This document shows positions 6,677 to 16,430 of a DNA stretch of 34,319 nt, one piece after another. The stretch covers positions 1 to 34,319 of the forward strand of contig JADLBZ010000257.1 in assembly GCA_020847415.1 (NCBI GenBank). The letters run 5' to 3'. A program made the translations under genes and the position numbers. Position 1 is the stretch's first letter; the number at the start of each line of letters is the position of its first letter. This DNA comes from Planctomycetota bacterium (GTDB lineage: Bacteria; Planctomycetota; UBA8742; UBA2392). The notes below the pieces were generated by a model. That model saw nothing but the letters and a program-made list of their open reading frames with translations, ran no database searches and was not told where the DNA came from.

Positions 6677-7861
6677 CTAATACTTGGGCGAAGTGGGGTC
6701 CACCTCGTCGCTCCAGCGCAGCATGCCGCCCACCATGTTGCGGGCATTGGCAAAACCCATCTGCTGCAGGTGCTTCACGGCCTGACCAGACCGGTTGCCG
6801 GAACGTCAGTAGATGACGAGTTCCTTGTCCTTGTGCGCCGACAGCTCCTGCCAGCGCTGGCCGAACTCGGGCAATGGAATCCAGGCGTCGTAGGGCAGGG
6901 CACAGATGCCCAGCTCGTTGTGGTTGCGCACGTCCACCAGGAAAGGCTTGTCACCGGCCTTGATGCGCGCCGCCAGTTGCACGGGCGTGATCTCGTCGGA
7001 TCTCACGGCAGCCCTGGCTTCGGCCTCCTTGGCCTTGCGGGCTTCCTCGTCCGTGGGCACGCCGCAGAACTGGTGATAGTCAATCAACTGGTGAATGCTG
7101 CGCTTGGGGCCGCAGATGGGGCACTCGGGGTCCTTGCGCACCTTCAGCTCGCGGAACTTCATGCCCAGGGCGTCAAACACCAGCAGGCGGCCCTTCAGCG
7201 TCTCGCCGATGCCGGAGAGCACCTTCAGGGTTTCCAGGGCCTGCAGGCAGCCCACGATACCCGGCAGCACGCCCAGAACGCCGCCCTCGGCGCAACTGGG
7301 CACCATGCCCGGCGGCGGGGGGTCAGGGTACAGGCACCGGTAGCAGGGCCCGTCTTTCATGCCGAACACTGTGCACTGGCCGTCAAAGCGGAAGATGCTG
7401 GCGTAGGCATTGACCTTGCCCTCCAGCACGCAGGCGTCGTTGACCAGGTAGCGCGTAGGGAAGTTATCGGTGCCATCCGCCACGACGTCGTAGTTGCGCA
7501 CAATCTCGCGGGCGTTCTGGCTGGAAAGGGCCACTTCGTGGATCTCGACCTCGACGTGGGGGTTGAGGTCCTTGATGCGGTTGCGGGCGCTGATGACCTT
7601 GCGCTCGCCGACGGTGCTGGTGCCGTGGATGATCTGGCGCTGCAGGTTGCTGCGGTCCACGACGTCAAAGTCCACGATGCCGATGCGGCCCACGCCGGCT
7701 GCCGCCAGGTACAGGGCAAGCGGGCTGCCCAGACCGCCCGCGCCCACGCAAAGCACGCTGGAGCGCTTGAGCTTCTCCTGCCCCTCGCGCCCGAACTCGG
7801 GCAGGATGATGTGCCGCGCGTAGCGCTGCAGCTCTTCGTTGGACAAGACCGCCTGCGTCAT
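6677..7861 (-). CDS. moeB: MoeB/ThiF-type adenylyltransferase fused to rhodanese domain; probable selenoprotein (in-frame TGA at Sec352)
   Basis: 394 residues if TGA at 6806-6808 is read as selenocysteine. Residues 1 to about 255 are an E1-like MoeB/ThiF domain that adenylates the C-terminus of a sulfur-carrier protein: nucleotide loop GAGGLG (40-45), the DFDVVDRSNLQRQ segment, ADGTDNFPTR, and zinc cysteines C173, C176, C247, C250. A rhodanese domain follows (about 282-394), with VDVRNHNEL and then VIY-TGA-RSGNRSG, where the family has the catalytic Cys of CRSGxRS. Past the TGA the frame continues with a normal rhodanese end (QMGFANARNMVGGMLRW) to TAG. A SECIS-like hairpin lies just downstream. 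The start at 7861 has GAGG 11 nt upstream; an in-frame ATG at 7921 would add 20 non-conserved residues. Role: sulfur transfer for molybdopterin, thiamine or thiocarboxylate cofactors. The alternative is a premature stop. Confidence 0.85.
6778..6793 (-). promoter_or_regulatory. Bacterial SECIS-like hairpin for UGA recoding in moeB-rhodanese
   Basis: In the minus-strand mRNA, 12 nt after the UGA begins a 6-bp stem CGGUCU/AGGCCG closed by the tetraloop GGUC. The loop starts exactly 18 nt after the UGA. In E. coli fdhF, as I recall its sequence, the SelB-binding loop is also GGUC and also starts 18 nt after the UGA. A lower pairing UUC/GAA (6800-6802 with 6774-6776) can extend the stem. The hairpin lies inside the coding sequence, as bacterial SECIS elements do. 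Confidence 0.75.
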
Positions 7862-15632: not shown

Positions 15633-16430
15633 ATGGCGGATACTAACAGCGATGCCTATGCGCCACAGGAGATTGCCCAGCGCGTAGCCACCGTGGGCGT
15701 GGCCAAGGCACGCCGCAACCTCCTGTCCATGCTGGTGCTGGCGGTGCTGGCGGGCGCGTTCGTCGCCCTGGGCGGACTCTTCTACGCGGTCACTGTAACC
15801 GGCTCGGAGCTTGGCTTTGGCATCACCCGCCTGCTGGGCGGCATGGCCTTCAGCCTGGGCCTGATCCTGGTCGTGGTCGCGGGCGCCGAGTTGTTCACGG
15901 GCAATAACCTGATCGCTATGGCCTGGGCCAGCCGCCTGATCACCACGCGCGAACTGTTGCGTGGCTGGGTGATCGTCTACGCCGGCAACGCCATCGGCGC
16001 GATCGCAACGGCAGCGGGAATCTACCTCGCCGGCGTGCATGACTTCGGCAAGGGCGCCGTCGAGGAAACCCTGATGGCAGTGGCCACGCACAAGGCCGGC
16101 CTGGCGCCCTTGGAGATGTTCGTGCTGGGGGTGATGTGCAACGCCCTGGTGTGCCTGGCCGTGTGGCTTGCCATGGCCGGTCACACCGTCACCGACAAGA
16201 TCCTGGGCATCGTGCCGCCCATCACGGCATTTGTGGCCATCGGCTTTGAGAACTCGATCTCCAACCTGTTCTTCCTGCCCCTGGCCCTGATGCTGAGGCC
16301 GGACACCCCAGGACTGCTGCAGGGTTCACTGCTGAACATCGCGCTGGTTACCGCCGGCAACATCGTGGGCGGCACGGTGCTGGTGGCCGGCGTGTACTGG
16401 CTGGCCTACTTGCGCGACACAAAGAAGTAG
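15633..16430 (+). CDS. Formate/nitrite transporter (FNT) family channel with Asn at the central His position
   Basis: 265 residues, the usual FNT length, with six membrane helices. Family signatures are clear: AGAELFTGNN (83-92), LGVMCNALVCLAVWLA, GFENSISNLFFLP (204-216) and the C-terminal GNIVGGTVLVAGVYWLAYLR, which parallels FocA. FNT pentamers move formate, nitrite, hydrosulfide or lactate. At the place of the conserved pore His (FocA His209, in GFEHS) this protein has Asn207, so proton coupling and substrate choice may differ. The ATG at 15633 gives the natural FNT N-terminus; the longer upstream frame is not FNT-like. No clear ribosome binding site precedes it. Substrate cannot be told from context. 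Confidence 0.9.
   Translation: MADTNSDAYAPQEIAQRVATVGVAKARRNLLSMLVLAVLAGAFVALGGLFYAVTVTGSELGFGITRLLGGMAFSLGLILVVVAGAELFTGNNLIAMAWASRLITTRELLRGWVIVYAGNAIGAIATAAGIYLAGVHDFGKGAVEETLMAVATHKAGLAPLEMFVLGVMCNALVCLAVWLAMAGHTVTDKILGIVPPITAFVAIGFENSISNLFFLPLALMLRPDTPGLLQGSLLNIALVTAGNIVGGTVLVAGVYWLAYLRDTKK

Follow-up and report, generated by a model that had tools for sequence, protein, structure and literature searches.

The gene moeBR, on the minus strand of a 34,319-nucleotide stretch of Planctomycetota DNA (the window), encodes an enzyme of the MoeB-rhodanese family that, judged by its sequence, is very probably a selenoprotein. We are fairly confident that its product is a selenocysteine (Sec) enzyme of the MoeZR/Uba4/MOCS3 type that thiocarboxylates ThiS-fold carriers by means of Sec-bound sulfane sulfur. 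The case for a selenoprotein is carried by the interchange of Cys and Sec among relatives and by the Sec machinery of the genome. The position of the TGA codon is far stronger evidence than the hairpin that follows it, which by itself is modest evidence. Predicted Sec coding, the machinery, the Cys/Sec exchange and the conservation of the catalytic residues can all be read directly from the genomes.

An in-frame UGA at the rhodanese catalytic position

A preliminary description of the window had placed an in-frame TGA at the rhodanese catalytic Cys, and this proved correct: the frame of moeBR is broken solely by a TGA at 6808-6806 (residue 352), in the context ELVIY-U-RSGNRSG. The frame then continues, as had also been described, through 42 conserved codons to a TAG (6679-6677). 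The features of the gene are as follows.

6677 to 7861, minus strand: moeBR, MoeB/ThiF adenylyltransferase with a C-terminal rhodanese domain; 394 aa, predicted Sec at residue 352
7118 to 7822, minus strand: ThiF/E1-like adenylation domain, residues 14-248 (Pfam PF00899, E 8.8e-84)
7292 to 7294, minus strand: codon of Cys190 in the crossover loop, aligned with Uba4 Cys202 (the thioester Cys); invariant in 40 homologues; role taken from PMC7527816
7064 to 7066, minus strand: codon of Cys266 in the linker; invariant in 40 homologues; role taken from PMC7527816
6707 to 6985, minus strand: rhodanese domain, residues 293-385 (Pfam PF00581, E 7.9e-13)
6806 to 6808, minus strand: UGA codon 352, predicted Sec, at the rhodanese catalytic Cys position by alignment (equivalent to Uba4 Cys397)
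6778 to 6793, minus strand: SECIS-like hairpin CGGUCU-[GGUC]-AGGCCG with a 6-bp stem; the GGUC loop (6787-6784) begins 18 nt after the UGA

By Pfam, moeBR has the domain order of MoeZR, Uba4 and MOCS3, a ThiF domain followed by a C-terminal rhodanese domain, and it contains two zinc CxxC motifs (C173/C176 and C247/C250). Its closest solved relatives by sequence are Uba4 (6YUB) and E. coli MoeB (1JW9), and the same two proteins were closest by fold when an AlphaFold model (mean pLDDT 84.5) was compared with the PDB. Across the 40 homologues in which C190 and C266 are invariant, the column of U352 holds Cys or Sec throughout. From its position and from the spacing Y262-x3-C266, which equals Y301-x3-C305 of Uba4, we infer that Cys266 is the equivalent of Uba4 Cys305.

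Selenocysteine machinery and other predicted selenoproteins

The window belongs to a Planctomycetota metagenome-assembled genome (MAG) of 3.58 Mb in 327 contigs that is 85% complete. A search of this genome for the sel genes, which the preliminary description had proposed as a check, recovered all four: selC, a tRNA-Sec with a UCA anticodon, lies downstream of selA on one contig, and selB and selD were found as well. Within the family, selA and selC are present in 16 of 16 genomes. FdhA is a second predicted selenoprotein of the window's genome (HQCAATUHAPTE), with candidate loops 18-19 nt after its UGA, and SelD is predicted to be another (GAGUGCK; loop 26-27 nt after the UGA).

The gene for Sec-FdhA (UHAPTE) is located at L183:4289-7015 on the minus strand. 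FdhA needs molybdopterin, the sulfur of which is probably supplied by the moeBR enzyme. In the window itself, positions 15633-16430 on the plus strand encode a probable formate/nitrite transporter of the FocA/NirC type, as judged by eye from the translation.

Exchange of cysteine and selenocysteine within the family

The family, one of uncultured Planctomycetota, was sampled by 16 genomes from 6 genera, and a moeBR homologue could be recovered across the site in 15 of them. Codon 352 is TGA in six (the window's genome, G010, G012, G011, G007 and G014, each assembled separately) and TGC or TGT in nine, which is the Cys/Sec interchange among close homologues that had been proposed as a check. 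Every member of a wider set of 80 relatives drawn from a genome collection has Cys at the site (79 TGC, 1 TGT); three of these are Cys members of the same family and the rest come from Acidobacteriota, Rhodothermota and other groups. Since all of the examined relatives outside the family carry Cys, Sec would have arisen inside it. A tree built without the Sec column calls for at least four Cys/Sec changes, which are forced by well-supported branches.

The tail that follows the UGA comprises 42 residues and has an identical end point in all 15 family proteins. Comparison of the three related genus g4 genes with Sec gives this tail a pN/pS of 0.09-0.11. Disabling mutations downstream of the TGA, which the preliminary description had named as a sign against Sec, were absent: the tail is undamaged and under purifying selection.

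Several observations are signs of Sec-to-Cys reversion within the family, where we infer the direction of every change. Two Cys genes of genus g4, those of G013 (L021) and G003 (L024), have a 7-bp GGUC hairpin at 18 nt, as does the Sec gene of G010. The hairpin is encoded by CGA-TCT-GGT, a combination with a joint frequency of about 1e-4 to 7e-4 by local codon usage, and standing after a TGT codon it is likely a relic SECIS left by a Sec-to-Cys change. The Cys codon at the site is TGT in 5 of the 9 Cys genes, compared with 11 of the 146 other Cys codons in the same genes (Fisher p 6e-4, with the five genes not all independent). Sec-to-Cys change has been called rare and is known mainly from FdhA and SelD (2026 review, PMC13188914); the moeBR family looks like a further case besides these two.

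The hairpin downstream of the UGA

The hairpin reported in the preliminary description, a 6-bp stem with a GGUC loop 18 nt after the UGA, was located at 6793-6778. Its shape agrees with the SECIS pattern of a G in a small apical loop downstream of the UGA. The likeness to E. coli fdhF, which had been pointed out earlier, was borne out in the K-12 sequence NC_000913, where a GGUC loop likewise starts 18 nt after the UGA. The two elements differ in stem sequence and in stem length, with 4 continuous bp for fdhF in the same scan versus 6 bp for moeBR.

Among synonymous recodings of the same peptide, 1.7% matched or bettered the moeBR hairpin (p 0.017), and the same shape test gave p 0.02-0.24 for the other Sec genes of the family. 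Several Cys genes of the family have hairpins comparable to those of Sec genes. The minimum free energy of the hairpin did not differ significantly from that of synonymous shuffles in most family genes, and an Rfam search returned no SECIS family near the moeBR UGA. Synonymous conservation of the hairpin codons was mostly not significant between family pairs, with an upstream comparison that was disturbed by an indel for some pairs. The earlier argument that codon and hairpin together make chance or a simple nonsense mutation unlikely thus stands in its conclusion, through the Cys/Sec interchange and the Sec machinery, but the hairpin alone is weaker than that argument implied.

Alternative readings of the UGA codon

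If the TGA were a nonsense mutation, the mark of a decaying gene or an assembly error, the gene would end at 6806 and the remainder would be a remnant. Under this code TGA formally means stop, and the window comes from a fragmented MAG; however, the same codon occurs in six separately assembled genomes at one functionally special column, the tail is whole and ends at the same point in 15 of 15 proteins, related Sec genes show purifying selection on it (pN/pS about 0.1), and the genome has the full Sec machinery. We therefore reject this reading as highly improbable. A general reassignment of UGA to Trp, Gly or Cys in the window's genome would supply the readthrough that the gene requires, but its probability is close to nil and we reject it too: UGA is a normal stop in this genome, where fdhA ends in TGA, and in the relatives G005 and G009, which have TGT (Cys) at the site and TGA as the normal stop of the gene, and a tRNA-Sec(UCA) is present.

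Two further readings accept the Sec codon and assign it another purpose. Sec decoding is generally inefficient and dependent on selenium, so UGA 352 might act as a selenium switch, yielding, when selenium is low, a 351-aa MoeB that has only half of its rhodanese domain and takes its sulfur from elsewhere, and the full enzyme when selenium is ample. Consistent with this, the ThiF domain is finished before the UGA, and E. coli MoeB functions without a rhodanese domain (PMC3227635). However, a stop at the UGA would leave a truncated rhodanese fold, relatives with Cys constitutively produce the whole enzyme, and we saw no sign of selection for the short form, which makes a switch unlikely. Alternatively, the enzyme might load selenium in place of sulfur and produce selenocarboxylated carriers, destined for a seleno-cofactor or a seleno-tRNA. 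In favour of this, rhodanese-type proteins can bind selenium as a perselenide and SelU uses its rhodanese domain to make selenouridine. Against it, Sec is here the catalytic residue and not the cargo, Cys relatives do the same job in genomes that use selenium equally, and the carriers are those of ordinary sulfur metabolism; we regard selenium delivery as very unlikely.

Proposed mechanism and carriers

The reading that we prefer, a Sec-dependent sulfur relay, takes its chemistry, the carriers served and any kinetic advantage of Sec from homologous enzymes. In Uba4, the carrier is adenylated and passed to a thioester on the crossover-loop Cys202, which is attacked by the Cys397 persulfide to give the thiocarboxylate, while the linker Cys305 has been implicated in the removal of sulfur intermediates (PMC7527816). 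Cys202, Cys397 and Cys305 correspond to C190, U352 and C266 of moeBR. In moeBR, SelB with Sec-tRNA would decode UGA 352 as Sec, presumably directed by the hairpin whose loop begins 18 nt after it. By analogy with Uba4, the ThiF domain would adenylate the C-terminal Gly-Gly of ThiS-fold carriers, which would probably be held as a thioester on Cys190. A desulfurase or sulfurtransferase would hand sulfane sulfur to Sec352, forming Se-S(-), which would attack the thioester. The resulting acyl selenosulfide would be resolved, probably via Cys266/Cys190 and then thioredoxin, freeing the carrier thiocarboxylate and leaving an easily reduced S-Se bond. Selenium would thus improve the sulfur relay as nucleophile, as leaving group and as redox partner, and would not itself be cargo. 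The Cys190 thioester step is uncertain because PMC8561144 describes bacterial carriers as activated without passage through a thioester, and the crossover-loop thioester of bacterial MoeB-rhodaneses is disputed.

Three ThiS-fold carriers were found in the window's genome: a MoaD, a ThiS whose gene immediately precedes that of ThiG, and a CysO-like carrier. As no ThiF-family gene other than moeBR was found in this 85%-complete MAG, its product is probably the common activator of all three. Mycobacterial MoeZR acts on both MoaD and CysO (PMC3227635). Across 14 family genomes moeBR has no conserved gene neighbourhood and no link to carriers, so that no operon partner can be named.

The gene for the CysO-like carrier (L178:5791-6138, minus strand) adjoins two others, one for a homoserine dehydrogenase and one for a GHMP kinase that is probably a homoserine kinase. 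These neighbours suggest thiocarboxylate-dependent chemistry in the homocysteine or threonine branch.

Through the proposed relay, selenium would take part in supplying sulfur to central cofactors, namely the molybdenum cofactor and thiamine. Its enzyme, apparently the only carrier activator of the genome, probably feeds the molybdenum cofactor of FdhA, itself a predicted selenoprotein. Because nature provides, within this family, a single enzyme in matched Cys and Sec forms, an old question becomes testable: the gain of Sec over Cys in a sulfur-transfer role, outside the peroxidases.

Predicted selenocysteine at two positions in N-terminal-rhodanese fusions

Other Planctomycetota encode MoeB fusions in which the rhodanese domain is N-terminal. 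Among 392 genomes, TGA occupies the crossover-loop Cys position (APSUxEAGVLG) in 11 of the 30 best matches to this fusion. On the tree, crossover Sec in these fusions requires at least three changes. The selA gene was present in all five crossover-Sec fusion genomes tested for it, and in the tested genomes without full selA (G078 and G028) the fused homologue that was inspected has Cys.

Three of these genes, L200 (G144), L201 (G256) and L202 (G097), carry a second TGA at the rhodanese Cys (UGGGSRS), which makes them candidate double-Sec forms; their crossover motif is APxUxEAGVLG, and a hairpin of 7-11 bp follows each TGA. Five genes from one genus (L203-L207, in G158, G129, G218, G238 and G288) combine crossover Sec with Asp (GAC) at the rhodanese Cys position, so that the crossover Sec has been kept next to a rhodanese site that looks inactive. 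Sec at the crossover loop and Cys at the rhodanese site are found in L208 (G020), L221 (G258) and L223 (G016). In the double forms, the hairpins at the rhodanese site have 7-9 bp and outdo 98-99.9% of synonymous recodings, compared with a median of 4 bp at this site in non-TGA genes. Crossover-site hairpins reach 7-11 bp in 10 of 11 genes and are less distinctive against recodings. A scan of viral contigs contained no double-Sec form, and we found no report of one in the openly accessible literature. In G131, a Cys version of the N-terminal fusion stands in an apparent operon with a CysO-like carrier and a cysteine synthase-like gene (L238 with L192), an arrangement that points to CysO-type cysteine synthesis in Planctomycetota.

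The exchange of both catalytic residues for Sec within one phylum is consistent with contact between the two during turnover, and the Sec that related enzymes have at the second site points to the step of their interaction. We propose tentatively, at slightly less than an even chance, that Planctomycetota run this relay on selenium at both positions, with rhodanese Sec in C-terminal fusions such as moeBR, crossover Sec in N-terminal fusions, and both in at least three genomes. If this is true, the two residues would meet as a selenenylsulfide or diselenide during carrier release, and the double-Sec form would be a diselenide-capable E1-like enzyme. That form, and repeated Sec-to-Cys reversion with a relic SECIS, would then be new.

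Comparison with known systems

The preliminary description had mentioned Sec-containing MoeB and rhodanese proteins from marine surveys, and both were indeed predicted in Sargasso Sea and Global Ocean Sampling (GOS) data (PMC1088965, PMC2398784). For Sec-MoeB these predictions comprised 11 Sargasso Sea sequences in 2005 (Zhang et al., PMC1088965) and 19 GOS sequences in 2008 (PMC2398784); current lists, in reviews of 2022 and 2026, give it one Sec and the motif '-' (2026 table, PMC13188914). Sec-MoeB as such has therefore been predicted since 2005, and moeBR is a variant of it. The marine proteins (COG0476/PF00899) share with moeBR a Sec in a MoeB/ThiF protein, predicted in each case from an in-frame UGA, a hairpin resembling a SECIS and the existence of homologues with Cys. 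They differ, as compared by table entry, in that no motif is listed, whereas moeBR has the rhodanese-loop motif URSG (UxxG). Because entries with a rhodanese-loop Sec are given as UxxG or UxxS and MoeB as '-', the Sec of the listed MoeB probably lies at a position other than the rhodanese loop, perhaps in the crossover loop.

The Sec-containing rhodaneses and rhodanese-related sulfurtransferases (forms 1-5, PMC13188914) resemble moeBR in having Sec at or near the rhodanese loop, some with UxxG or UxxS, but they are listed separately and not as E1-like MoeB fusions, with no function given. The N-terminal-rhodanese MoeB fusions (NCBIfam NF006444 / PRK08762 type) share the same two domains, carrier activation and, in Planctomycetota, the use of Sec; their domain order is reversed, and their Sec stands mainly at the crossover-loop Cys, with both sites occupied in three. 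Mycobacterial MoeZR/MoeBR, human MOCS3 and fungal Uba4 (6YUB) share with moeBR the architecture, the catalytic residues and the predicted ThiS-fold carrier substrates, and differ from it in having Cys at the rhodanese site where moeBR has a predicted Sec.
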